Positions 1,454-53,287 of a DNA stretch of 54,560 bases are shown piece after piece. The notes beneath the pieces were generated by a model. That model was not told the DNA's origin, made no database searches, and saw only the letters and a list, made by a program, of their open reading frames with translations. Within the stretch, counting starts at the first letter, position 1, and the number at the start of each line of letters is the position of its first letter. Origin of the DNA: Myxococcales bacterium (GTDB lineage: Bacteria; Lernaellota; Lernaellaia; Lernaellales; Lernaellaceae); contig JAAYVF010000113.1 in the NCBI GenBank assembly GCA_012517325.1, positions 1 through 54,560 on the forward strand, written 5' to 3'. The position numbers and the translations under genes are program-made.

Positions 1454-1457
<4 letters not shown>

Positions 1458-3040
1458 GCCGGGTCGTGGCGATCGTCGGCGGCCGGTTGCAGCCGGAGGA
1501 CGTGGTCGCGGTCGCCCGCGAGGGCGCCAAGGTCTTTCTGTCGCCGGCGGGCGAAAAGCGGTTGGCAGCGGGCGCGGCGCGGCTGGCGCAAGTCGAGGCG
1601 GGGACCGGCCCGGTGCCGTTGTGGAAGTTGGCCGATCTGACCGATGACGCGGAACGACCCGCGCCGGCGGATCTCACGGCGCTGGCCCGGCACGTGATCC
1701 TCGACCACGCCGTCGCGGTGGGCCGGCCGTTGCCGACCGAACTCGTGCGCGCGGCCATGCTGGTGCGCGCCGACGTTTTCGCGCAGGGTTACAGCGGCGT
1801 CCGGCCGGAACTGGCCGAGCGCCTGGTGGACATGCTCAACCGGGAAGTGCATCCGATCGTGCCGGCGCACGGCCATTTTTCCGTGGCCGGCGACGTGGCG
1901 CCGCTCGCGCACCTGGCCCTGGTGCTGTGCGCCGGAAGCGACGATTACAGCGGCTCCGGGCAGGCGGCCCTCGGCTGGCACGAGGCCGGCGCGCCGATCC
2001 TGCCGGGCGGCGAGGCGATGCGCGCCGCGCGGCTCGAACCCGTGCGGCCGAATTTGAAAGAAGCCTTTTCGTTGATCGTCGGCCACAGCTTCGCCGCCGG
2101 TTGGGCGGCGCTGCTGATCGAGGAAGCCTGGCGTCTCTGGCGACTGGCCGTGGCCGCCAGCGCGTTGACGTGCGAGGCCCTTTTGGCTAACACCGCCGCG
2201 TTCGATCCGCGCCTGCTCGGACTCGGGCCGGGTCGCGAGTGGATCGTCCGCGTCGGCGAACGGCTGCACGGCTGGACCGCCGGTTCGCGCATGGCCGGCA
2301 ACCGCCAGCGCGCCGACGCGTTTTCGATCCGCTGCATCCCCCAGGTGCTCGGGGCGGTCGCTGGCGTGCTCGACCGCGTCGGGCAGGCGATCGGCGAGGA
2401 ACTGGGCCTGGCGAGCGACAATCCGGTCCTCATCGACGATCCGGAAGGGCCGCGCTGTCTGGACGGCGGCAATTTCCACGGCGCGCGGCTGTCGCTGGCG
2501 GTCGACAACCTGCGCCTGGCGATGGCCGAAATCGGGTCGCTGGCCGAGCGCCACGCGTTTCTGCTCACCAACGGCAGCCGCAACTCCGGCCTGCCCAGCT
2601 TCCTGATCCGCCGCCACGGCCTGAACAGCGGCTTCATGCTCGCCCAGTACACGGCCGCGGCGCTGGTCAGCGAAAACAAGGCGCTGGCCTTGCCCTATGC
2701 GACCGACTCGATTCCGAGCGTGCAGGATTACGAGGACCACGCGGGCCTGTCCTTGCACTCCACCGCGGTGACCGACAAGCTGCTGACGAACGTCCGGCGC
2801 GTGCTGGCGATCGAATTTCTGCTGGCCGCGCAGGGCGTCGAGCTGCGCCTCGAGGAAGGCAAGCAGGCCGGTCGGCGAACCTTGCGGTTGCACGACGAAA
2901 TCCGCCGGACGATTCCGGTTTGGGAAGACGACACGGTATTGTCGCGGCGGATCGAGCAGGCCGACGCCCTGTGCCGGCCCGGCGGCGGGCTCGACCGCCT
3001 GGCCCGCGAAACGAGGGAGAACGACCATGACGACGAATAA
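1454..3040 (+). CDS. HAL/PAL-fold protein lacking the MIO triad (probable pseudoenzyme)
   Basis: 528-residue paralogue of the preceding lyase. The start at 1454 (ATGA overlap) is chosen over the upstream in-frame ATG at 1256, which would lie deep inside hutH. The fold is recognisable through AMLVRADVFAQGYSGVRP, FSIRCIPQVLGAV, GNFHGARLSLA and YEDHAGLS. The catalytic centre is rewritten. The MIO Ala-Ser-Gly is Val-Ala-Gly (residues 144-146, nt 1883-1891), so no Ser is available for MIO formation. The LALNNG segment is FSLIVGHS, which removes the catalytic Asn. The YSLRC Tyr is Phe. The N-terminal Tyr loop (YGINTGFG) is absent and replaced by unrelated sequence. The His after ILD and the Glu of YEDH are kept. 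Ammonia-lyase activity by the known mechanism is therefore unlikely. A regulatory or ligand-binding role, perhaps in a hetero-oligomer with the upstream lyase, is inference. The frame is intact, so this is not a decaying pseudogene. Confidence 0.85.
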
Positions 3041-4403
3041 AAAGGTGAAGCCCGCCCAACCCGGCGGGTTCAACGATTACGGCCCGGCGGCGATGATCGC
3101 GCGCGGCCGGATGATCGACACGATCCGCCGTGTGTACGAGTTGTACGGCTTCCAGCCGCTCGACACGCCGTGCGTCGAGTTCTCCGAGGTGCTGCTCGGC
3201 GACGGCGGCGAGACCGAAAAGGAAATCTTCCGGCTGACCGGTCCCGAGGAGGACAAGGAACTGGCGCTGCGCTTCGACCTGACCGTGGCGCTGTCGCGCT
3301 ACGTGGCGGCGAACACCGACCTGCTCATGCCGTTCAAGCGCTACCAGGTCGGCAACGTGTTCCGCGGCGAGAAGCCGCAGGCCGGCCGCTTCCGCCAGTT
3401 TCTGCAGGTGGACGCCGACGTCGTGGGCGCCAAGACCGGCCTGGCCGACGCCGAGATCATCGCCGTGACCGCCGCCGCGATGGCGGGTCTGGGCATCGAG
3501 CGCTTCGTCGTGCGGATCAACGACCGCAAGATTCACGACGGCCTCGCCGCCGCGGTGGGGATCGACGCGCGCGGGCCGCTGACGCGCGGCGAAATGGTCA
3601 ACGAACTGCTGCGGGTGCTCGACAAACTGGAAAAGATCGGCCGCCCGGGCGTGCGCGCCGAATTGATGAAAAAACCCGAATACGAGGCCGACCGCGCCTT
3701 GCACCTGTCCGCCGAGCAGGTCGCGCTGGTCGAGCGCTTTCTGGACATCGCCGGCGACAACGGCGAAAAATTGGCCCGCGCCGAAGCCCTGGTGCGCGGC
3801 GAAACCGGTGCGGCGGGCATCGCCGAACTGCGCGAGATTCTCGCCGACCTGCGGGCGCTGGGCTGGGACGAGCGCGTCGAGGTCGACCTGACCGTCGCGC
3901 GCGGCCTCGAATATTACACCGGCCCCGTGCTCGAAACGCGTCTTTTAGACCTGCCGGAGATCGGCTCGGTGGCCAGCGGCGGCCGCTACGACGAAATGAT
4001 CGGTCGCTTCCACGCCAACGCGATCCCGGCCGTCGGCACCAGCATCGGCTTGGACCGGCTGTTCGACGCGCTGCAACGGCTGCAACTGGTGACCACCGTC
4101 GAAAGCGAGGTCGACGCGCTGATCATCGTCTTCGACGCAAAGTACACCGCGACCTACCTCGACTACCTGCGGCGCCTGCGCGCGGCGGGCATCTCGGCCG
4201 AGATCTACCTGGGCAGCGACAGCGGCTTCAAGGCGCAGATGCGCTACGGCCTGCGCAAGGGCGTGAAGCACCTGGTGATCTGCGGCGAAGACGAGATCGC
4301 CCAGGGCGGGGTGCAGGTGAAAAACCTCGCGACCCGCAACCAGGAATTCGTGCCGGCCGAGCGATTGCTCGCTTACCTCCGCCAACCCGCCGTTTCGGCC
4401 TGA
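3027..4403 (+). CDS. hisS: Histidyl-tRNA synthetase
   Basis: Class II aminoacyl-tRNA synthetase charging tRNA-His; 458 aa. Motif 2 is the RYQVGNVFRGE region followed by GRFRQFLQVDADVVG. The histidine-binding signature is VARGLEYYTG, then SVASGGRYDEMIG; motif 3 is GTSIGLDRLF. A C-terminal anticodon-binding domain (DALIIVFDAKY to the end) is present, so this is a full HisRS and not the HisZ regulatory paralogue. The ATP/His pocket reads LRFDLTVALSRY, like the LRYDLTVP of eukaryal and archaeal enzymes, and not the LRPEGTA usual in bacteria. The start lies 14 nt inside the end of the upstream gene and has a GAGGGAGA Shine-Dalgarno, so it is coupled. An odd tRNA-His lies in the same window at 16640-16712. 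Confidence 0.93.
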   Translation: MTTNKKVKPAQPGGFNDYGPAAMIARGRMIDTIRRVYELYGFQPLDTPCVEFSEVLLGDGGETEKEIFRLTGPEEDKELALRFDLTVALSRYVAANTDLLMPFKRYQVGNVFRGEKPQAGRFRQFLQVDADVVGAKTGLADAEIIAVTAAAMAGLGIERFVVRINDRKIHDGLAAAVGIDARGPLTRGEMVNELLRVLDKLEKIGRPGVRAELMKKPEYEADRALHLSAEQVALVERFLDIAGDNGEKLARAEALVRGETGAAGIAELREILADLRALGWDERVEVDLTVARGLEYYTGPVLETRLLDLPEIGSVASGGRYDEMIGRFHANAIPAVGTSIGLDRLFDALQRLQLVTTVESEVDALIIVFDAKYTATYLDYLRRLRAAGISAEIYLGSDSGFKAQMRYGLRKGVKHLVICGEDEIAQGGVQVKNLATRNQEFVPAERLLAYLRQPAVSA

Positions 4404-4423
4404 TTCGCCGGCAAGGGAACGAC

Positions 4424-5239
4424 ATGCCCGTCGATTATCACATTCATACGGCGCTGTGCGGCCACGCGGCCGACGAAATGGAAGAGTACGTGGAACAGGC
4501 CTTGCGCCTGGGTTTGACCGAAATGGGTTTCGCCGACCACCTGCCGATGGAAGTCTGGGGCCAGGCCGATCCCTGTCTGACGATGTCGCTGGCCGATATG
4601 GAAATCTACCGGCGGCGCGTCGCGGATTTGCAGGCGCGCTATCAAGGGCGGATTCGCATCCGCTTCGGGCTGGAGGCCGATTACGTGCCGGGAAAGGAGC
4701 GGGTCATCGAGGATTTTCTGCGCCGCTACGATTTTGATTACGTGATCGGCTCGGTGCATTTTCTCGGCGCCGACGAGGTCGACTTCAGCCGCGACCACGC
4801 CCCCTGGACGACGCATCCGGTGGATGAAATCTTTACCGGCTACTTCGCGACGCTGCGCGATTGCGCGGCCTGCGGCCTCTTCGATTTTCTCGGCCACCCC
4901 GACCTGGTGAAGAAGTTCGGCCATCGCCCGAGCTTCGCGCTGGACGACTGGTATGACCGCATCGCCACCGTTTGCGCGGCGCACGGCATCGCCGCCGAGA
5001 TCAACACCAGCGGCCTGCACCGGCCGGTCGGCGAGCCGTACCCGCACGAGGATTTCGTCCGCGCTTTCGTGCGCCACGGCGTGCCGATGCCGATCAACAG
5101 CGACGCGCACCTGCCTCAGGAAGTCGGCCGCGATCGCGCGGCGGCGGAAGCGTTGGCGCGGCGGGCCGGCCTGCGGCGGACGCCGCTCTACGAAAAACGC
5201 CGCCTCGTCGGCTGGGACGAACTGCCGGTCGGCGAATAA
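4424..5239 (+). CDS. PHP-domain phosphatase, histidinol-phosphatase (HisK/HisJ) type
   Basis: 271-aa polymerase-and-histidinol-phosphatase fold metal hydrolase, probably dephosphorylating histidinol phosphate in histidine biosynthesis. Metal-binding motifs are visible in order: HIHT at residues 6-9, FADHLP, the Glu of GLEADYVPG, the His of GSVHFLG, GHPDLVKKF, and the C-terminal NSDAHLP. Length matches the HisJ/HisK family (~260-280 aa). The start is 20 nt after hisS, with AAGGG upstream. It is the last gene of the HAL/HAL-like/HisS operon, which supports a histidine-related role. Other PHP phosphoesterases share these motifs, so the substrate is inferred from length and context. Confidence 0.85.
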   Translation: MPVDYHIHTALCGHAADEMEEYVEQALRLGLTEMGFADHLPMEVWGQADPCLTMSLADMEIYRRRVADLQARYQGRIRIRFGLEADYVPGKERVIEDFLRRYDFDYVIGSVHFLGADEVDFSRDHAPWTTHPVDEIFTGYFATLRDCAACGLFDFLGHPDLVKKFGHRPSFALDDWYDRIATVCAAHGIAAEINTSGLHRPVGEPYPHEDFVRAFVRHGVPMPINSDAHLPQEVGRDRAAAEALARRAGLRRTPLYEKRRLVGWDELPVGE

Positions 5240-5327: not shown

Positions 5328-7445
5328 TTACTCCGCTCGTTCGCCCAGCAGCCGCAGACCGTTGGCGATCACCAGCAGCGAAGCGCCCATGTCGGCGAAG
5401 ACGGCCATCCACAGCGTCGCGACGCCGCCGAGCGCCAGCAGGAAGAAGACCAGTTTGATGCCCAGCGCCAGGGCGATGTTGGCCCGCAGGCGGCCCATGC
5501 TCCGCCGGGCGAGGCGAAAGAGAAAGGCGAGCTTGCCCAGATCGTTCGCCAGCAGGGCGACATCGGCGGTTTCCAGCGCCTGGTCGGCACCCCGGCCCAT
5601 GGCGACGCCCAGGTCGGCGGCGGCCAGGGCGGGCGCGTCGTTGACGCCGTCGCCCACCATCGCCGTCGCGCCGTAACGAGCCTGCAACTCCTTCACGGCG
5701 GCCACCTTCTGGGCGGGCAGCAACTCGGCGCGCAAACCGTCGAGCGGCAGCCGCCGGGAAACGAGCCGCGCCACGGCCTCGTTGTCGCCGGTCAGCATGC
5801 ACAGGTGCGCGATGCCCGCGTCCTTGACCTCCCGCAAGCGGTGCGGCGCTTCCTCGCGCAGCGGATCTTCCAGGACGATGACCCCCTGCGGCGCGCCGTC
5901 GTAGCCGACGAACACCAGGCTGCCCGCGCCGTTTTCCAACCGCGTGGCCTGCTCGTGCAGGGTGCGCGAACACAATTCGCGCTCGTGAAAGAGGTGGTGA
6001 TTGCCGACGAACACCCGCCGCTGCTCGACCAGGCCGGTGGCGCCCAGGCCGGGCAGAAGCCGCACGTCGCGCGCCTCGGGAATCGCCAGGTCCGCGGCTT
6101 GCGCCCGGCCGACGATGGCCGCCGCCAGCACGTGTCCGGCGTGCTTTTCCACCGCCGCCGCCAGACGCAGCAGTTGTTGGGGGTCGATGCCGTCGAGCGC
6201 CACCACGTCGACCACCGCCGGTTGGCCGTGGGTCAGCGTGCCGGTCTTGTCGAACGCCACGGCGCGGATCCGCGCGGCTTTTTCGAGCGCGACGCCGCCC
6301 TTGATCAGCACGCCGGCGCGCGCCGCCGCGGCCAGACCGGAGACCAGCGTGATCGGCGTCGAGATGACCAGCGCGCACGGACAGCCGATGAGCAGCACCA
6401 CCAGGCCGCGGTAGAACCACTCGTGGAACGGCTGGCCGAAGGCGAGCGTCGGCACGGCGACGATCGCCGCCGCCAGCGCGATCACCACCAGTGTATAAAT
6501 CCGCGCGAAGGCGTCGATGAACCGCTGGGCCGGCGCTTTGGCGGCTTGGGCGTCGCGCACCAGGCCGATGATCCGGGCGAGGGTCGATTGCGACGCCGGG
6601 CGCGTGGCGCGAATCACCAACACCCCTTCGCCGTTGATCGATCCGGCGAACACCTCGTCCCCCGCCGCTTTGACGACCGGCAACGATTCGCCGGTCACCG
6701 GCGCCTGGTTGACCCCGCTTTGCCCCTGCTCCACCACGCCGTCCAAGCCGAAGCGCTCGCCGGGTCGCACGACGATGCGCGCCCCCGCCGGAACGCGCTC
6801 CGGCGAGACGCGCCGCTCGGTTTCGCCGTCGAGCCAGGTCACCTCGTCCGGCGCCAGCGTCAGTAGCGAGGCGACCGCCCGCTGCGCGCGGTTCATGCTG
6901 TAGGATTCGATCAACTCGGCCAGCGCGAACAGAAAAATCACCATCGCGCCTTCCGACCATTCGCCCAGGGCGATCGCGCCGGCCACCGCCAGGGTCATCA
7001 GGACGTTCATGTCCGCCCGTCGGGCGCGCAACGCCGCCCAGGTCTTGCGCACGGTCAGGGCGCCGCCCAGCACGATGCCGGCGAGAAACAGCGCCTCGAC
7101 GACCAAAAGCGGTGCGCCCAGCCGGCCCAGCAGGGTCGCCGCCAGCCAGGCCAGACCCGAAGCGCCCGCCAGCAGGTGGCCGCGCCGGCGCTTCCAGAAA
7201 GTCCGTTCAACCTTTTCACCGGCCAGCGTCGTCTGGTGGCCGAATCCGGCGATCGTCGCCTGCAACTTCGACGCGTCGACGGCGCGCGGGTCGTAGCGAA
7301 CCGTCAGGCGGCTGTCGAGCAGACGGTACGATTGCGCTTGCACGCCGGGCAGCGCCGCCACCGCGTCGAGGATCGATTGCGTGCAGTCCGGGCAGCTCAG
7401 GTCATGGATGATCAATTCCACTTCGCGGGTGGTCGGAGCGGGCAT
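5328..7445 (-). CDS. zntA: Zn/Cd/Pb-translocating P1B-type ATPase
   Basis: 705-aa inner-membrane metal exporter. The N-terminal heavy-metal-associated domain carries LSCPDC (CxxC). Next come the phosphatase segment TGESLPV, the TM6 metal site CPCALVISTP, the phosphorylation site DKTGTLTHG and the hinge VGDGVNDAPAL. The C-terminal helices carry NIALALGIKLVFF (Lys) and FADMGASLLVIANGLRLL (Asp), which are Zn/Cd/Pb determinants of the ZntA subgroup. The usual SEHPL motif of the nucleotide domain reads AGHVL: the His is kept but the Pro is replaced. It starts 4 nt after the ArsR-family gene upstream on the same strand, so it is presumably metal-induced from that promoter. No clear terminator follows; only a 4-bp hairpin with TAAAAA is seen. 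Confidence 0.95.
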   Translation of the reverse strand: MPAPTTREVELIIHDLSCPDCTQSILDAVAALPGVQAQSYRLLDSRLTVRYDPRAVDASKLQATIAGFGHQTTLAGEKVERTFWKRRRGHLLAGASGLAWLAATLLGRLGAPLLVVEALFLAGIVLGGALTVRKTWAALRARRADMNVLMTLAVAGAIALGEWSEGAMVIFLFALAELIESYSMNRAQRAVASLLTLAPDEVTWLDGETERRVSPERVPAGARIVVRPGERFGLDGVVEQGQSGVNQAPVTGESLPVVKAAGDEVFAGSINGEGVLVIRATRPASQSTLARIIGLVRDAQAAKAPAQRFIDAFARIYTLVVIALAAAIVAVPTLAFGQPFHEWFYRGLVVLLIGCPCALVISTPITLVSGLAAAARAGVLIKGGVALEKAARIRAVAFDKTGTLTHGQPAVVDVVALDGIDPQQLLRLAAAVEKHAGHVLAAAIVGRAQAADLAIPEARDVRLLPGLGATGLVEQRRVFVGNHHLFHERELCSRTLHEQATRLENGAGSLVFVGYDGAPQGVIVLEDPLREEAPHRLREVKDAGIAHLCMLTGDNEAVARLVSRRLPLDGLRAELLPAQKVAAVKELQARYGATAMVGDGVNDAPALAAADLGVAMGRGADQALETADVALLANDLGKLAFLFRLARRSMGRLRANIALALGIKLVFFLLALGGVATLWMAVFADMGASLLVIANGLRLLGERAE

Positions 7446-7448
7446 GGC

Positions 7449-7823
7449 TTACCTCGCGGTGTTGAGCCCGGCGGAATTTTCCCGCACGTGCGCCAGGCCG
7501 TCGCGGAACAGGTGCTCGATATGCTCGTCATCCAACGAATAGAGGGCGAGTTTGCCGTCACGCCGGTACTTGACCAGGTTCATCGTGCGCAGCAACCGCA
7601 ATTGCTGCGAGACGTTGGATTCGCGGGCGCCGAGCAGGCGGCTCAGGTCGCCGACGCAAAGCTCGGTGCGTGACAGGACATAGAGGATTTTCAAGCGCAG
7701 GGGGTCGCCCAGAACCTTGAAAGTCTCGGCCAGGCGTTGAAAAACCGGTTCGTCGGCGAGAAATGGGGTCAGATTCACGGCGGCGGTTCGATCGCCGAAG
7801 CGGAGATCCTGGGGCTGAGTCAT
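7449..7823 (-). CDS. ArsR/SmtB-family metal-sensing repressor
   Basis: 124-aa winged-helix dimeric repressor expected to dissociate from DNA on binding Zn(II) or a similar ion. The recognition helix is LLGARESNVSQQLRLL. The C-terminal helix has D99, H101, H112 and E115, exactly the D-x-H-x10-H-x-x-E alpha5 zinc site of SmtB/CzrA proteins. Cys56 (TELCVGDL) sits where SmtB has its alpha3 Cys. I start at 7823 because AAAAAGGA lies 7 nt upstream. The in-frame ATG at 7841 has no Shine-Dalgarno and lies inside a palindrome. It is co-transcribed with the P-type ATPase (3-nt gap) and is the obvious regulator of the pair. Confidence 0.9.
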   Translation of the reverse strand: MTQPQDLRFGDRTAAVNLTPFLADEPVFQRLAETFKVLGDPLRLKILYVLSRTELCVGDLSRLLGARESNVSQQLRLLRTMNLVKYRRDGKLALYSLDDEHIEHLFRDGLAHVRENSAGLNTAR

Positions 7824-7834
7824 GTTACAATCCT

Positions 7835-7872
7835 TTTTCATATGAAAAGGTATTGAAAACTATATATAGTTT
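7835..7872 (-). promoter_or_regulatory. Candidate ArsR operator: two AT-rich perfect palindromes
   Basis: Two perfect inverted repeats lie between promoter and start codon: AAACTATATATAGTTT at 7857-7872 and TTTTCATATGAAAA at 7835-7848, with centres 23 bp apart. ArsR/SmtB proteins bind AT-rich dyads overlapping the -10 or transcription start, so one or both are likely binding sites. The second contains the rejected upstream ATG of the repressor gene. Confidence 0.55.
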
Positions 7873-45440: not shown

Positions 45441-47540
45441 ATGGCCGGGCGCCGGGCGCTGACGGAAAAGTGGGGCGTCGCGGCGCTGTTCGGCCTGGCG
45501 CTGTTCCTGCGTTTCTGGCGGCTCGCCGCGCAGAGTCTCTGGGACGACGAGGTCGCGACGTTCCGCGCCGCCGCGCTGTCCCTCCGGCAAATCTGGACCG
45601 ACATTCCGCTCATCGATTCGAATCCGCCGCTCATCTACACGGTGTTGCATTTCTGGCGGGCGCTGGGCGAAAGCGAGTTCACCTTGCGCAGCCTGCCGGC
45701 CTTGCTGGGCGCGATCGCCGTACCCGTCGCCTACCTGGCCCTGCGGCGGCCCTTGGGGCGCGCGGCCGCCGGCCTCGCGGCGTTTTGGCTGGCCGTCAAC
45801 CCGCTCGCCGTCTATTGCGGGCAGGAGACGCGCTACAACACGCTGGTGACGCTGCTGGTGCTGCTGGCCGTCTGGGCGCTCACGGCGACGCTCGCCGCGC
45901 CCCGCCGCGCGACGGCGCTGGGCCTGGCCGTCGCCGCCTCGCTGGCGATGTACAGCCACTATTTCTCGTTTTTTCCGCTGGCGGCGCTGGCGCTCTTTTT
46001 GGGGTTGTCGGCCGCGCGGTTGCGGCGTTGCGAAGGGCGGAACGCGACGGCCGAAACCCGGCTGGTTTGGCTCGCCTATTATTCGCGGTCGGCGGTGACG
46101 CGATGGGAGGCCCTGGCGGCGCGCGCGGCCTATCGCGAGGCGATCGGCCGGCAGTGGCGCGGGCTCGCGCTGGCGGCCGGCGCGCTCGTGGCGGCCGCGC
46201 TGTCGTTCGCGCCGTTTCTGAAGTTTTTCACCATTCAGTTGTTGCGCGGCGTGCATTGGCGCGAGTCGTTAGGTACGGCGGAAGTGCTCGAGCGCGCGGC
46301 GGTCTGGACGTTCGTCGGACATAGTGTAACGGCGCCGCCGACCTTTTTCGCGGCGTGGAACCCATGGTTCGCCTTGCATCCGGCAAGGCATCTGGCCCTG
46401 CTGTTCGCGGCGGTGCTGCCGGCGATTGCACTGGCCCTGTACGGCATGACGGCACGCCGCGACGGTGCGCGGCCCTTGGCCTTGCCGGTGCTGGCGCTGG
46501 CACCGGTGGCCGGCGTCACGGCGCTCAGCCGCCTGACGCCGATCTTCGATCCGCGCTACCTGTTGCCGCTGGTGCCGTTCTGGCTGGCCGCGTCGGCGGC
46601 CGGGATGGTCGAGCTGTGGCGGCGTCGCCGGCGGGTGTTGCCGGTCGTCGCGGCGCTCTGGCTGCTGTCGCTGACGGCGCTGAGCCTGAAGGATTACTAT
46701 TATTCGCCGGCGCATTGGCGGCAGGATTGGCGCGGCCTGGCGGCTCGCGTCGCCCGCGAGGCCGAGCCGGACGCCGCCGTGCTGTTTTACAATTTTTACA
46801 CTTCGCTGGCGTTTCTGCATTATTACGAAAAAGCGCCGGCCCGGCCGCCGGTGCAGTACCTGTACGTGCTGGAGGAGCGCTTCGGGCCGCTCGACGACCG
46901 GCGCCGTCGCGTCGCGCAGGTGCTCGACGGCGTCGCGCGCGAATCGCGCCCGGTGTGGTTGATCGACTACCACGGCTACATGGACGATCCGTACGACGAC
47001 GTGCGCCAGGGCTTGCGCGCCCGGCAGTATGCGCTGCTCTTGCGCGAGTGCCGTCTGCCCGGCTTGTGGCGGTATTGCCTTGAACGCTGGGTGTTCGGCG
47101 AGTCGCGCCGGCTGGCCGCGCTGGCTGACGATTTCGATTTCGAAACCCGGCCGCCGGTCGATTGCCAACTGGCCGCCGGCTGGTATCCCGGCGAAGGCCG
47201 CCGCTGGATGGGCGAACGCGCGGAACTCCTTTTTCGGCGACCGGCCGGCCGGGCGCGGCTGCGGCTGCAATTCTTCGTCAACCAGGATTATCTGCGCGGG
47301 CCGCTGACCCTGCGCGTCGCCGCGGCCGGGCAACCGATCGGCGAGGTGACCGTGACCGACACGCGCGACGTGGTCTGGACCAGCCCGCCGTTCGCGGCGC
47401 CGCCCGGCGACGAACCGACGATCCGCTTGTCGCTGGCGGTCGATCGGGTGTTCGTTCCCGATGATGTCCGGCACGACGGCGACCGCGCGGCGAAAAGCAT
47501 TCTCGTCAAAGCGGCGGCCTTGGAGGCGGCGGATGAATAA
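45441..47540 (+). CDS. GT-C membrane glycosyltransferase paralogue 1
   Basis: 699 aa; the ATG at 45441 is 2 nt after the radical SAM stop. About 11 helices with GT39/GT83 signatures: SLWDDEVATF (D35-D36-E37, putative catalytic loop), QETRYNTLV, MYSHYFSFF and DPRYLLPLVP. It has an extra ~45-residue charged cytoplasmic insertion (RRCEGRNATAETRLV onward) absent from its two paralogues. A soluble alpha/beta segment follows the helices. A C-terminal beta-rich domain ends in VFVPDDVRHDGDRAAKSILV, shared with the next two genes. Donor would be polyprenyl-phosphate sugar; acceptor unknown. The stop overlaps the next gene by 8 nt. Confidence 0.82.
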   Translation: MAGRRALTEKWGVAALFGLALFLRFWRLAAQSLWDDEVATFRAAALSLRQIWTDIPLIDSNPPLIYTVLHFWRALGESEFTLRSLPALLGAIAVPVAYLALRRPLGRAAAGLAAFWLAVNPLAVYCGQETRYNTLVTLLVLLAVWALTATLAAPRRATALGLAVAASLAMYSHYFSFFPLAALALFLGLSAARLRRCEGRNATAETRLVWLAYYSRSAVTRWEALAARAAYREAIGRQWRGLALAAGALVAAALSFAPFLKFFTIQLLRGVHWRESLGTAEVLERAAVWTFVGHSVTAPPTFFAAWNPWFALHPARHLALLFAAVLPAIALALYGMTARRDGARPLALPVLALAPVAGVTALSRLTPIFDPRYLLPLVPFWLAASAAGMVELWRRRRRVLPVVAALWLLSLTALSLKDYYYSPAHWRQDWRGLAARVAREAEPDAAVLFYNFYTSLAFLHYYEKAPARPPVQYLYVLEERFGPLDDRRRRVAQVLDGVARESRPVWLIDYHGYMDDPYDDVRQGLRARQYALLLRECRLPGLWRYCLERWVFGESRRLAALADDFDFETRPPVDCQLAAGWYPGEGRRWMGERAELLFRRPAGRARLRLQFFVNQDYLRGPLTLRVAAAGQPIGEVTVTDTRDVVWTSPPFAAPPGDEPTIRLSLAVDRVFVPDDVRHDGDRAAKSILVKAAALEAADE

Positions 47541-49440
47541 GCGGGTGCTCGAGGCGGTGATCGGCGTGGGCCTGTTCGGCGCGGCGGCGGGCCTCGGGCT
47601 TTATCACGGCGCGGTGCGCGGCACCTGGACCGACGAGGCCGCCACGGTCTACCTGCTGACCAAGTCGTGGGGCGAGATCTGGCGCATCGCGGTGACGCAC
47701 GACGTGAACCCCTTCGGCAGCTATTTGTTGTGGCGGCTCTGCCGGCTGGGCGGCGATTCGCTGTTTTATCTGCGCGGGTTGTCGGCGCTTTGTTTCGCGA
47801 TCAGCACCGTGTTGCTGTACCGGCTCGGATTGCGGGTCGGCCGGCGGGCCGCGGCGCTCTGGGCGGCGCTCTTTTTCCTGGCGACGCCGCTCGCGCAGTT
47901 CCTGTCGGCCCAGGTTCGTTACCCAATGTTGCTGACCGCCGTCGTCCTGGCGTCGGCGCTGGCGCTGCTGCGGCTCGTCGAAACCGGCCGGACCGGCGCC
48001 GCCGTCGCCTGGGCGCTGTTCGGCGCGGCCTCGTTCCACGTGCACTACTTTGCCGGGTTCGTCTTGCTGGCCGAAGGATCGTTCGCGCTGTTGGCGGCAC
48101 GGCGCTCGCCTTGGCGAAAAAAGATTTTCCTGGCGGCGGCGGGATTGGTTGCCTTGATTTTGCCGTGGCTGCCGGTGCTGATCGGCCAGCTCATCGGGCG
48201 CGAGGCGGCCGGCGGCGGCGAACCGGTGCGCTGGACCCTCTTGTCGCCGTTGACGCTCGTTTATCTGACGCAGGGTTTTCACTACTGGCAGTTGCCGCGC
48301 TTCTGGGCCGATCGGCTCGCGCCGCGCGCCGATTATCTGCCGCTCGTTTTGGCCTTGCCGTTTTTAACGGCGCTTGTTCTGGGCTCGTTGCCTGGCGGGC
48401 GCGAGCCGGACAAACGCCGGTTGCTGCTGTGGCTGGGATGGGGGCCGATGGCCGCGTTTTTAGCCGTTTCGCTGGTGTTGCAATTGTTCAGTCCGCATTA
48501 TTTTCTGCCGTTTCTGCCGTTCCTGACGCTGCTGGCCGGCAACGGTTTGACCTGGCTTTGGGCGCGCTCCAAGACGGCGGCGGGCCTGCTGGCGGTGGCG
48601 GTGACGGTCGTCACCCTCGGCGGCGCAGCGGAGTTGTGGCAGCACCCTAATTGGCCCGAGGGGTGGCGGCCGATCGCGCGGACGATCGCCGCGGCGGCCG
48701 CGCCCGGCGACGTGGTCGTGCTGCCGAATCTGCCGGCGCGCCTCTGCTACTCGCTGGAAAAGCGGGATTCGCTGCCGGTGTTTCACCTGACGCAAGGTAC
48801 GCCGGGACGGCAGATCGTCGCGCCGCGGGCGGCCGCGGAGGCGATGGCGGCGCTCGCCGCGCGGTATCGCCGGGCGCTTTTCGTGACCTACTATCCGTCG
48901 CGTTTCGATCCGACCGGAGCGGTGGCGCGCGAGGCGGCGCGGCAAGGCGCCACGGTCACGCCCGTGCCGGGATTCGCCGATCCGCGGGTCGGGCTGCAAT
49001 TCATCTATTTCCGTTCGCCTTTCGAACCGGGCGGCATGGCGCCGCAAATCCGCTTCCCGGCCGGCGCCCAGCACCCGCTGCAACTGGCGGCAGGGTTTTA
49101 TCCCGATCCGGCCGCCGAATGGTGGACCGCCGGCGAGGCGCAGGTGTTGTTGCCGCGGCCGCCCGACGGCGCGCGCCTGGAGATCGACGCGACCGTGCCG
49201 TTGACCTTGTTCGATTCGGCGCTGCCGACGATTACGGTTGCGATCAATAGCCGGCCGGTGCCGACGCTGGTTATGCCGGAAGGCCGCCTGCGACTCGGGC
49301 CGATTCCGGGCCCGTTCGCCGAACCGTGGGTGGTGGTCGATTTGTCCTGCCGTCCGACGTTCGTGCCCGATGTGCTGTTCCACGACGGCGACCGGCGGCC
49401 CAAGTGCCTGCTGGTCCGGTCGATCGGCTGGAGCCGCTGA
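47533..49440 (+). CDS. GT-C membrane glycosyltransferase paralogue 2
   Basis: 635 aa; the start at 47533 lies in the last 8 nt of paralogue 1, with GGAGGCGG upstream. Signatures align with its neighbours: TWTDEAATVY (D34-E35), QVRYPMLL, FHVHYFAGF and SPHYFLPFLP. After about 11 helices a soluble segment (about 380-500) and a C-terminal beta domain follow, with TFVPDVLFHDGDRRPKCLLV near the end. No cytoplasmic insertion. The stop shares one base with the next start (TGATG). Confidence 0.82.
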   Translation: MNKRVLEAVIGVGLFGAAAGLGLYHGAVRGTWTDEAATVYLLTKSWGEIWRIAVTHDVNPFGSYLLWRLCRLGGDSLFYLRGLSALCFAISTVLLYRLGLRVGRRAAALWAALFFLATPLAQFLSAQVRYPMLLTAVVLASALALLRLVETGRTGAAVAWALFGAASFHVHYFAGFVLLAEGSFALLAARRSPWRKKIFLAAAGLVALILPWLPVLIGQLIGREAAGGGEPVRWTLLSPLTLVYLTQGFHYWQLPRFWADRLAPRADYLPLVLALPFLTALVLGSLPGGREPDKRRLLLWLGWGPMAAFLAVSLVLQLFSPHYFLPFLPFLTLLAGNGLTWLWARSKTAAGLLAVAVTVVTLGGAAELWQHPNWPEGWRPIARTIAAAAAPGDVVVLPNLPARLCYSLEKRDSLPVFHLTQGTPGRQIVAPRAAAEAMAALAARYRRALFVTYYPSRFDPTGAVAREAARQGATVTPVPGFADPRVGLQFIYFRSPFEPGGMAPQIRFPAGAQHPLQLAAGFYPDPAAEWWTAGEAQVLLPRPPDGARLEIDATVPLTLFDSALPTITVAINSRPVPTLVMPEGRLRLGPIPGPFAEPWVVVDLSCRPTFVPDVLFHDGDRRPKCLLVRSIGWSR

Positions 49441-51401
49441 TGGACCGCGGGCTGCCGTACGACGCGATTTTCGGCGAACGCGAAGCGGCGCTGAAGGTGA
49501 CTTTTTTAACCGGCCTGGCGTTGCTGCTGCGCTATTTATGGTTTGATGCTCAGCCGCTCTGGACCGACGAGGCGATCACCTGGGAGTTCGCGAAGACCGA
49601 CTTCGGCGGCCTGCTTTTGCGGCAGCTTTACGACGCCAGCCCGCCCGGTTTTTACCTGTTGCTCAAGGCCTGGCTCGGCCTGGCGCGGTCCAACGAGGAG
49701 ATGCGCTGGCTGACCGTCCTGCTGGGCGCGGCGACGGTGCCGGCGACCTACCTGCTCGGCGCCCGCCTAAAAAACCGCGCGGCGGGCCTGCTGGGCGCGT
49801 GGCTGGTGGCGATCAATCCGCTGCATTTCTATTACAGCCTGGAAGTCCGCTACCCGGTGCTGCTGACTTTGCTGCTGACCCTGCAAATCCTGCTGTTCGG
49901 CGAATGCCTCCGTGACGGCGCCCGGCGCCGCTGGATCGCCTGGAGCGCCGTGACCGCCCTGGCGTTGTGGGTCCAGTATTTCACCGGCTTCGTCGTCCTG
50001 GCCGAGGTCGTCTACCTGCTGCTGGATCGCGAGCGGCGGCGGTCAACCGGGCGCCTGGCTGTTTCGCTGCTCGCGGTGGCGCTGCTTTTCCTGCCGTGGT
50101 GGACGGAATTCACGCTGCAACTGACGCGCGGCAAACCGACGCGGCAGTTTTTCGGTTGGTTCGAGCGGCTTTTCCTCGGGCCGGCGTTCCTGACGCTCGG
50201 CGGATCGGAATGGAGCCTGCCCTCACTATTGGGCCGGCTACCCGACGACCGCGGCTATCTGGCTGTCGCGCTGCTCCTGATGGCGCCGTTCGCCGTTGCC
50301 CTCGGACTGGGCATCCGGCGGGAAAAGCAGGAGCGGTCGCGCTACCAACTGACGTTCATCGTCGCGGCGACCTTCGTCGCGTTTCTGGCCGCGGCTCAAT
50401 TCCTGCCACTGTTCCGGCCGAAGTACCTGTTGCCGCTGCTGCCCCCGGCGGCGGTGCTGGCGGGCGACGGCCTGTCCCGGCTCGCCGGCCGGCGGCGATG
50501 GGCGGCATGGCTTCTGTTCCTGGCGATCTCGGCCGTCTCGCTGCACGGCGTCGCGGCGGTGGCCACCGATCCGCTGCTGGGCAAGGAACCGTGGCGGGAG
50601 GTGGCCGACCGGCTGGGTCGCGACGGGCGGGAGGGCGACGTGATCGCGGTGCCGAATCGCTATTATGCCCTGGCGCTGGAACTGGCGGTCGCCGATCGCT
50701 GGCCGATCGTTTCAATCGTGGGCGACTCGCCGTACGAGCAGCTGGCGCGTCCGGACCAGGTGGCGCGGATCGCCCGGCGCCTGTTCGCGCGGGCGGAACG
50801 CGTCTGGTACATCGATCACGATTGGCGGTTGTTCGATCCGCGCGAGGTCGTGCCGGCGACCCTCGGCGAGATCGGGCGGGAGGCGACGCGGCTTGTGTAT
50901 CCGCGCGGACGGCATTTTTCGTTGCGGCTGTTCGCGCGCGACGAGGCGGCTGCCCGCGACAGTCGGAGCGGCGTCGTCGATTTCCAAACCGGCGATTACA
51001 CGCCGGAGCAGTCGCTCGACGGTTGGTCGCCGGGCCCGCCCGGTTTTCGCTGGCTGAGCGAAAGCGCGGCGGTGCGGGTGACGCGCCGCTGGGGCGAGGA
51101 TCTGGCGTTCGCCTGTTTTTACGTCCACCGGCCGTACTTTACGGACGGCCCGCCGACCTTTAGGTTGTGGGTCGACGAGCAGGAGGTCGCGGCGCGCCGG
51201 GTGGACGAAAGCGATCTGATCTGTCTGGAAGGCATGCTCGGGCCGGCCGCGCGCGAGCGGCGCGAGGTCGTGCTGCGCCTGACGACGGACCGGACGTTCG
51301 TTCCGGCGGCGGTCCGGGGCGACGGCGACCGGACGCCCCGGAGCGCCCTGGCGGCGCGGCTGGGATTGCACCGCACGGGATTTTGTTGGGAGAAGCCATG
51401 A
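49440..51401 (+). CDS. GT-C membrane glycosyltransferase paralogue 3
   Basis: 653 aa; the start at 49440 is set by the TGATG junction and excludes the longer frame from 49326. Same plan as its neighbours: LWTDEAITW (D43-E44), LEVRYPVLL, LWVQYFTGF and RPKYLLPLLP, then a soluble segment and the C-terminal domain ending TFVPAAVRGDGDRTPRSALA. The presence of three tandem copies suggests sequential addition of different sugars, or one sugar at different positions. The stop overlaps the second radical SAM gene by 4 nt. Confidence 0.82.
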   Translation: MDRGLPYDAIFGEREAALKVTFLTGLALLLRYLWFDAQPLWTDEAITWEFAKTDFGGLLLRQLYDASPPGFYLLLKAWLGLARSNEEMRWLTVLLGAATVPATYLLGARLKNRAAGLLGAWLVAINPLHFYYSLEVRYPVLLTLLLTLQILLFGECLRDGARRRWIAWSAVTALALWVQYFTGFVVLAEVVYLLLDRERRRSTGRLAVSLLAVALLFLPWWTEFTLQLTRGKPTRQFFGWFERLFLGPAFLTLGGSEWSLPSLLGRLPDDRGYLAVALLLMAPFAVALGLGIRREKQERSRYQLTFIVAATFVAFLAAAQFLPLFRPKYLLPLLPPAAVLAGDGLSRLAGRRRWAAWLLFLAISAVSLHGVAAVATDPLLGKEPWREVADRLGRDGREGDVIAVPNRYYALALELAVADRWPIVSIVGDSPYEQLARPDQVARIARRLFARAERVWYIDHDWRLFDPREVVPATLGEIGREATRLVYPRGRHFSLRLFARDEAAARDSRSGVVDFQTGDYTPEQSLDGWSPGPPGFRWLSESAAVRVTRRWGEDLAFACFYVHRPYFTDGPPTFRLWVDEQEVAARRVDESDLICLEGMLGPAARERREVVLRLTTDRTFVPAAVRGDGDRTPRSALAARLGLHRTGFCWEKP

Positions 51402-53287
51402 AACGCATCGTTTTTCACCTGGTCAGCGGCCCCGACGATTTGCGGGATTACGCCCCGCTGGGGTTCGGCTATCTGGCGGCATTTCTGGACAAGATGGAGT
51501 TCGCGGCGCGCTGCACGGTCGAGGACGATCTGGAAGCCATCCTGGCTATCAATCCGGACGTGATCGGCCTTTCCTGCGCCTCGCAGAATTACGGCCTGGC
51601 GATCGAACGCGCGCGACTCTTGCGGCAACGCACCGGCGCGAAGCTGGTTTTGGGTGGCGCGCACATCTCCTGTCTGCCGGAAAGCCTGGATCCGGCGTTT
51701 CATTGCGGCGTGGTCGGCGAGGGCGAGGACACGTTTCATCACCTGATGCGCGTGCTGGAAAAAACCGGCGACCTGGCGCCCGCCGATCTGGCCGAGGTTT
51801 ACGGCTTGGTCTATTGGCGGGACGGCCGCCTCGTCCGCACCGAGGACCGCGCGCCGATCGACCCGCTCGATTCCGTCCCGCCGCCCGACCGGTCGATTCT
51901 GCCGCCGGCGCGGTTGACGCACCTCATGACCGGCCGCGGCTGCCCCTACGACTGCCGGTTTTGCGCCAGTAACCGCATGTGGGGCGGTTATCGCGGCTTC
52001 AGCGCCGAGCGCGTGGCCGCCGAACTGATCGATTTGATCGAAGACGGCCACCGGCGCATCTACATTCACGACGACCTGTTCGTCGCCGATCCGTACCGCC
52101 TGATCCAGGTGGCCGATATCCTCGAGGAAAAGGAACTGCTGGGCGCGGCCGAACTCAGTTGCACCGTCCGCGCCGACCTGGTGGACGACGACCTGTGCGA
52201 GATTCTCTTTCGCCTCGGCGTCACCGCGGTCACCTTCGGCTTCGAAAGCGCCGACGACGACACCCTTGAACGCTTAAACAAGCGGCAGACGGTCGACCAG
52301 GCGCGCGCGACCCTGGCCACGCTCGACCGTTACGGCATCGAATGCGCCGTTTCGGCCATCGTCGGCGAACCGGAAGAAACGCTGGAATCCATCCGCGCCA
52401 CCTATCAGTTCCTGGCCGACGAGGCGGTGCGCGGCCGGCTTTCCGAGGGCGAGGTGAATATCCTGGCGCCGTTCCCCGGCACCGAATATTGGGACCGCGC
52501 GGTGAAGCTCGGCCTGGTCGGCGACCCGCTAAAATTCGATTGGTCCCGAGTGGGTTCGCCGTGGCGCGGGCTGTTGCTCAATCCGCTGATTGCGAAGGAG
52601 GCGGCGCGTCTGATCGGTTGGGATCATCGCCTGCGGGGGATTTTCGCGGCGCTGGCGCGGCCGTTGGTGTTGCTGGCGACCGACGAGGCCGACCTCGATC
52701 TGGACATCGATCCGCGGCTGGTCCGGGCGATTTTCCTGTTGTCCGATGAGGAAGGCGTCGCGGAAGTGGTTTCGGAGGGCGAGGTGACCCTGCTGCGATA
52801 CGGGCCCGACGAATTTCTCGACGAGTTGGCCCGCCTGGCCGACGAATACGGCGACTCGCCCCTGGTGCTGTTCGCGCCGGAACCGGAGCAGGCGACGATG
52901 GCGGTCATCCGCGCCTGCAAACTCGGCGCGACCCTGCTCGGCAAACCGTTCGTGCGATCGCGCACCGGCGAGTTTCCGCTGATGGCTCGTTTGCAAAATG
53001 CGCTCGGCCTGGGCGGCGATCCGTTTCTCAGCCTCGTGGCCGGCGATGATGAATTCCTGCCGGAGATGGCGATCGCGGAACCGGCCAAACTGCGCGAATT
53101 GCCTTACAGCGACCTGGCCAAACCGGTTCCGCATACCGAGGATGCCGTCAAGCTGCTCGATCGGTATGCGGCGGAACTGCAGGCGCGCCGCAAGGAAGCC
53201 TTCGAATCCGCGATGCGAGAGCAGGAAAAAATCCGTCCGGTTCCTTCCGAGGAAGAAGAATACGAGGATGATATAGAGGAATTTTAG
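51398..53287 (+). CDS. B12-binding-type radical SAM protein (copy 2)
   Basis: 629 aa, paralogous to the protein at 43450. Cobalamin-type N-terminal domain (PDVIGLSCASQNYG, LGGAHISCLPE, VVGEGEDTF), cluster Cys182, Cys186 and Cys189 (GCPYDCRFC), IYIHDDLFVAD, TFGFESADDDTLE, VGEPEETLESI and APFPGTEYW. The C-terminal ~230 residues differ from copy 1: DEADLDLDID, PEPEQATMAVIRACK and LSLVAGDDEFLPEM, with a strongly acidic tail (PSEEEEYEDDIEEF). The start overlaps the upstream stop (ATGA). It closes the coupled block. Substrate unknown. Confidence 0.84.
   Translation: MKRIVFHLVSGPDDLRDYAPLGFGYLAAFLDKMEFAARCTVEDDLEAILAINPDVIGLSCASQNYGLAIERARLLRQRTGAKLVLGGAHISCLPESLDPAFHCGVVGEGEDTFHHLMRVLEKTGDLAPADLAEVYGLVYWRDGRLVRTEDRAPIDPLDSVPPPDRSILPPARLTHLMTGRGCPYDCRFCASNRMWGGYRGFSAERVAAELIDLIEDGHRRIYIHDDLFVADPYRLIQVADILEEKELLGAAELSCTVRADLVDDDLCEILFRLGVTAVTFGFESADDDTLERLNKRQTVDQARATLATLDRYGIECAVSAIVGEPEETLESIRATYQFLADEAVRGRLSEGEVNILAPFPGTEYWDRAVKLGLVGDPLKFDWSRVGSPWRGLLLNPLIAKEAARLIGWDHRLRGIFAALARPLVLLATDEADLDLDIDPRLVRAIFLLSDEEGVAEVVSEGEVTLLRYGPDEFLDELARLADEYGDSPLVLFAPEPEQATMAVIRACKLGATLLGKPFVRSRTGEFPLMARLQNALGLGGDPFLSLVAGDDEFLPEMAIAEPAKLRELPYSDLAKPVPHTEDAVKLLDRYAAELQARRKEAFESAMREQEKIRPVPSEEEEYEDDIEEF

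Follow-up and report, generated by a model that had tools for sequence, protein, structure and literature searches.

Histidine ammonia-lyases (HALs) are homotetramers, in whose structures His83 and Glu414 touch the imidazole and Arg283 the carboxylate. Elsewhere in histidine metabolism, an inactive enzyme paralogue, HisZ, acts as a regulatory subunit with HisG. In the characterised enzyme GkHAL, the variants Y52F, H82L, N194D, and E411D were each inactive, and Q274N, R280K, and F325Y had reduced activity (PMC11432326). The HAL superfamily also includes ergothionase, which is stated to have no MIO (PMC13405746, citing the structure paper).

The window, which is the whole stretch of DNA analysed here (54,560 nucleotides), contains a MIO-less HAL paralogue of 528 aa (pseudo-HAL) at 1454-3040 on the + strand, which was identified by its ORF, Pfam, AlphaFold2, and fold comparison. 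The frame is open from ATG to TAA over 528 codons, as the initial annotation had reported. Along its full length, pseudo-HAL falls within the aromatic amino acid lyase superfamily, with a Pfam Lyase_aromatic (PF00221) match of 392.6 bits covering residues 12-484, and its scores fall short of the curated NCBIfam HutH cut-offs (382.9 versus 524 bits and 365.6 versus 539 bits). Structure prediction gave it a HAL-like fold with high confidence: the AlphaFold2 model has a pLDDT of 91.4 and a pTM of 0.92, and its best fold matches are HALs of P. putida, T. cruzi, and T. acidophilum (Z 42-44), with Z 40 for the ergothionase fold.

Residues were numbered according to P. putida HAL using a phmmer alignment. 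The former MIO segment reads GHFSVAGD (1871-1894; HAL GSVGASGD), in which Val144-Ala145-Gly146 of pseudo-HAL (1883-1891) stands for HAL Ala142-Ser143-Gly144. MIO forms by cyclisation of an Ala-Ser-Gly triad (or X-Ser/Cys-Gly); since the triad here has no Ser, no MIO is possible. His141 and Ser143 of this segment in pseudo-HAL are new. The Tyr53 loop (YGINTGFG) is replaced, in both alignment and model, by VPLWKLADLT (1613-1642), which is four residues shorter (VPLW----KLADL versus VYGINTGFGSL), has Trp at the Tyr position, and is modelled at low confidence (pLDDT about 60). Catalytic Asn195 is Val209 (2078-2080), and in the segment ADAFSIR (2312-2332) Gln277 has become Ala287 and Tyr280 has become Phe290, with Arg283 kept. 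The alignment therefore agreed with the initial annotation on the Val-Ala-Gly triad and on the loss of Asn195, Tyr280, and the N-terminal Tyr loop, and it added Gln277 to the losses. His83, Arg283, Phe329, Met382, and Glu414 are kept; His83 lies within Asp84-His85 (HAL Ser82-His83; 1703-1708), Phe329 is Phe341 (2474-2476), and Glu414 is Glu427 (2732-2734).

Transferred to GkHAL, Tyr52, Asn194, and Gln274 are lost and His82, Glu411, Arg280, and Phe325 are kept, so that two of the four essential residues remain (His82 and Glu411), and these correspond to the imidazole contacts known from HAL structures. Because the parts needed for the reaction are lost and most histidine-holding groups are kept, pseudo-HAL is probably a partner or sensor rather than an enzyme. 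The pattern of loss, as read from the alignment, thus argues for the non-lyase role that had been proposed, and sensing or a subunit function is favoured over new chemistry.

The partner HAL is encoded immediately upstream (3-1457, + strand; PF00221, 542.8 bits). Its motifs SH, ASG, NNG, QDGYSLRC, and QEDH are all present, including every checkable catalytic residue, and it is MIO-competent (ASG). The initial annotation had described a 4-nt overlap with an intact HAL. The overlap is real, formed by the ATGA of the HAL stop and pseudo-HAL start (1454-1457), but the HAL is cut at its 5' end: window position 1 is contig base 1, so it lacks its first residues, probably about 40 if other HALs are a guide to its length. 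A Shine-Dalgarno-like GGAGG (1442-1446, + strand) precedes the pseudo-HAL start by 7 nt. At its other end, pseudo-HAL overlaps by 14 nt (3027-3040) with hisS, which encodes histidine--tRNA ligase (3027-4403, + strand; TIGR00442, 362.6 bits versus a cut-off of 286.75) and is the single HisS-family match in this genome. A histidinol-phosphatase gene of the HisJ family (PHP domain; 4421-5239, + strand, start approximate) follows, with scores of 176.7 versus 90.2 for TIGR01856 and 279.1 versus 202 for PRK07328. Elsewhere in the window, a heavy-metal P-type ATPase gene lies at 5331-7841 on the - strand with an ArsR-family regulator gene just upstream, and the region 47356-53284 (+ strand), where T strongly outweighs A (skew down to -0.30), contains a B12-binding radical SAM frame as well as two PMT_2 (mannosyltransferase-like) frames in succession.

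The window comes from an uncultured bacterial group, a small phylum for which seven genomes were covered. Pseudo-HAL has a 61% identical counterpart in a second genus of its family (G005, record PMZC01000297.1), represented by a genome from a fen metagenome that was deposited under Deltaproteobacteria and probably corresponds to GTDB lineage FEN-1099. Gene order is HAL, pseudo-HAL, hisS in both genera, and both overlaps (the same ATGA and 14 nt) are of equal length, from which pseudo-HAL would appear to be translationally coupled to, and co-expressed with, HAL and HisS. The second copy carries Met-Ala-Gly in place of the MIO triad and Ile at the Asn195 position, and shares with the first His83, Glu414, Arg283, the Ser82-to-Asp change, and the new His141 and Ser143. 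The survey of neighbouring genomes proposed in the initial annotation returned a second case of a MIO-less copy linked to HAL and HisS. Assembly error, sequencing error, or chance was ruled out by this shared state, and no stops or frameshifts indicative of neutral decay were found in either copy.

The same earlier account held that only the catalytic set had been lost, and this did not stand. The two pseudo-HALs were compared at the 144 columns in which 81 MIO-type homologues show at least 85% conservation: both copies keep 94 of these, 44 have gone from both, and 6 from one. The loss thus extends beyond the catalytic residues. Selection on the frame, which had also been proposed, was upheld. 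Using the NG86 method, which is crude and was applied at a dS near 0.9, dN/dS was about 0.37 for the pseudo-HAL pair, 0.30-0.35 for the HAL pair (two fragments), and 0.18 for hisS. Synonymous sites of the pseudo-HAL pair are well diverged (4-fold site difference of 0.44), and the observed protein identity of 61% compares with about 23% expected under neutral drift. By these measures the pseudo-HAL pair is under purifying selection near the level of the partner HAL. In a third genus of the family, HAL and hisS are neighbours without any pseudo-HAL, so the protein is dispensable in the family.

Conservation of the pocket was assessed in the stretches surrounding it, as set by the positions of the HAL residues named above. 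Between the two pseudo-HALs, 49 of 63 positions in these segments are identical (78%) versus 222 of 362 elsewhere (61%; Fisher p = 0.015). Against the partner HAL, pseudo-HAL is identical at 24 of the 63 (38%), the same as elsewhere, and in HAL-HAL pairs the pocket segments are far better kept than the rest of the protein. A pocket that is alike between the copies but unlike that of HAL fits one that was rebuilt once and then held by selection. It looks re-purposed and constrained on this sequence comparison, in which the effect is modest with two sequences.

Pseudo-HAL is known from these two sequences. Two peptide patterns, which diverged relatives may escape, were scanned against 85,000 species genomes and recovered it in the second genus only; all other matches keep a MIO triad. 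A profile search of 290 genomes, 92 of which gave strong matches, found none near the pseudo-HAL score, and the triad is kept in the 20 stretches that were inspected from it. MIO-less HAL-fold proteins are already known, but the genomes searched yielded no other case that combines loss of the Tyr loop with tight linkage to an intact HAL.

HAL and HisS genes are adjacent in five genomes of the phylum, in one of which HisZ and HisG are also beside them. Outside the phylum, one genome (L136) has HAL next to a frame that resembles HisS, as judged by eye. Of the seven genomes in the phylum, the six with HAL, and no others, have urocanase; since the two co-occur in this way, the partner HAL very likely degrades histidine, and on these genomic grounds it is most likely a true histidase within a histidine-balance cluster. 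HisZ-like and HisG genes beside HAL/HisS were noted in two genomes of the phylum (L017:2856-4193; L019:999-2174 and 82-1062), and the family to which the window genome belongs yielded no HisZ. The phylum also contains HALs of 729-732 aa with an intact MIO triad (L018:4615-6810 in G006 and L019:2156-4342 in G004), in which an additional, helical-looking segment of about 130 residues immediately precedes the QDDYSFRC motif; neither genome has a pseudo-HAL.

Taken as a whole, the reading to which we assign the most weight, at a rough probability of 45%, is that pseudo-HAL is a histidine-binding, non-catalytic HAL paralogue that acts with the co-translated HAL. It would keep the HAL fold with a rebuilt ligand pocket, be catalytically dead, and bind, but not turn over, histidine or a similar ligand. 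As a product of coupled translation from one mRNA, it would join the HAL oligomer and match HAL activity or stability to how much histidine is available. The cluster also provides for the charging of tRNA with histidine (HisS) and includes a HisJ-type histidine-biosynthesis enzyme. A more specific version is doubtful: HAL in this lineage would form mixed tetramers, half of whose sites have become non-catalytic and sense histidine, and histidine breakdown would be tuned by the dead twin, which shares its message with HisS. It counts against the partner reading that Gln277 and Tyr280, which should have been kept if pseudo-HAL fed residues into the partner active sites, are both lost. Reciprocal degeneration of the two proteins was also considered and rejected as weak, post hoc, and not specific. 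HAL has drifted in its C-terminal half and pseudo-HAL in its N-terminal half (Fisher p = 0.017, post hoc), a pattern that is weak because some unpaired HALs have the same skew, and the 13 of 18 HAL departures that fall where pseudo-HAL keeps the consensus are close to the base rate of 94/144. No report of a natural non-catalytic or MIO-less HAL partner was found in the open-access literature searched. If the dead twin does bind histidine and join the tetramer, this would be a simple case in which gene duplication gave an enzyme family a regulator of its own, and the pair would provide a natural test separating the HAL residues needed for binding from those needed for chemistry.

The main rival, itself unlikely, is that pseudo-HAL is a MIO-independent enzyme, whose rebuilt pocket (Trp57, Lys58, Asp84-His85, His141, and Ser143) would catalyse a different elimination, or a hydrolysis, of a compound derived from histidine. 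MIO-less catalysis on the HAL fold has a precedent in ergothionase, for which the lack of MIO is stated (PMC13405746), several of the new polar pocket residues are common to both copies, and the pocket segments are constrained. However, the replaced catalytic positions are conserved at 27 of 42, no better than the whole protein, there is no obvious general base in place of Tyr53 or Tyr280, and every ergothionase mark tested is absent. Pseudo-HAL does match the ergothionase structure 6s7j at 7e-29. Polaromonas and Rhizobium plasmid proteins have ergothionase as their best structure match, and the ergothionase-like set to which they belong, together with proteins of Sinorhizobium, Paracoccus, and Martelella, lacks one residue at the MIO site and carries motifs resembling LQDPLSxR. 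Membership of pseudo-HAL in the ergothionase family was rejected on these motifs, as it has none of the MIO-site deletion, LQDPLSxR, QK(T), or the YGL..GxG Tyr loop. The Tyr loop is kept in all seven other MIO-less homologue groups examined and is absent only from pseudo-HAL, which argues against lyase chemistry. Were pseudo-HAL active after all, it would represent another MIO-independent chemistry besides ergothionase, and one without the tyrosine that other MIO-less proteins keep.

Phylogenetic placement was evaluated with wider sampling. The best trees put pseudo-HAL inside the MIO-HAL radiation, in a group of 11 that includes the partner HAL (support 98/93). In AU tests, neither a grouping with ergothionases (p = 0.47 and 0.26) nor an origin as a recent, direct tandem duplicate of the partner HAL (p = 0.52 and 0.25) was rejected, and no excess of rare residues common to the pseudo-HAL pair and its HAL was found. 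The motif differences and the best tree point to an independent loss of MIO in pseudo-HAL.

It is also improbable that pseudo-HAL is a stand-alone histidine-binding or scaffold protein acting on HisS or gene expression rather than on HAL. The 14-nt hisS overlap conserved in two genera would suit such a role, as would the adjacency of HAL and HisS genes in five genomes of the phylum and at least one outside it. The HAL-hisS linkage exists without pseudo-HAL too, so linkage alone does not tie pseudo-HAL to HisS, and a Pfam domain search found no DNA- or RNA-binding domain in the protein. That pseudo-HAL is a relaxed duplicate being lost, retained solely because it sits between two genes that are needed, is very improbable and largely refuted: it evolves faster than hisS and is absent from one genus of the family, but its identity far exceeds that expected without selection, its dN/dS is close to that of the active HAL, both copies are free of stops and frameshifts, and the pocket segments are more conserved than the remainder.

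The preferred reading of a non-catalytic partner can be set beside the known systems. HAL itself (HutH; P. putida 1B8F, T. acidophilum 7TQR) shares with pseudo-HAL the whole-length fold, about 32% identity, and the five residues kept in the pocket; unlike HAL, pseudo-HAL has no MIO triad, Tyr53 loop, Asn195, Gln277, or Tyr280 and scores below the NCBIfam HAL cut-offs. Ergothionase (6S7J), a MIO-less trimethylamine lyase, has the same fold and likewise no MIO, whereas ergothionase-like proteins keep the Tyr loop and have the one-residue deletion and LQDPLSxR that pseudo-HAL lacks. Further MIO-less kinds are HutH-like proteins of a Klebsiella plasmid (L109) and a Rhizobium plasmid (L117). Both have the HAL fold without the MIO triad, L109 in a histidine-utilisation neighbourhood, and both differ from pseudo-HAL in having a deletion at the MIO site, the Tyr loop and Gln277 kept, and no adjoining intact HAL. 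The first (L109:3947-5479; Klebsiella pneumoniae plasmid NZ_CP092405.1) has the ASG segment deleted and carries the annotation aromatic amino acid ammonia-lyase; it lies in a hut cluster with hutU, hutC, hutD, hutF, and an ABC transporter, and is the sole HAL-superfamily place on the plasmid. Rhizobium plasmid genes at L111:3947-5452 and L117:3962-5455 are publicly annotated as hutH although the MIO triad is absent, and the best match of L111 among solved structures is ergothionase. Tandem hutH pairs (L128-L131) resemble the present locus in having two adjoining HAL-superfamily genes, but both members have an ASG, ACG, or TSG triad and the Tyr loop. The second member in L128, L129, L130, and L131 is of the YNHAAG / TGANFQGS type, unlike ordinary HutH, and a HAL-like protein of Martelella alba (L032:5608-7611) has Ala-Cys-Gly at the MIO site. 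HisZ-HisG has no sequence relation to the HAL pair, whose complex we infer, but by analogy the two may work alike, as a pseudoenzyme paired with its enzyme.
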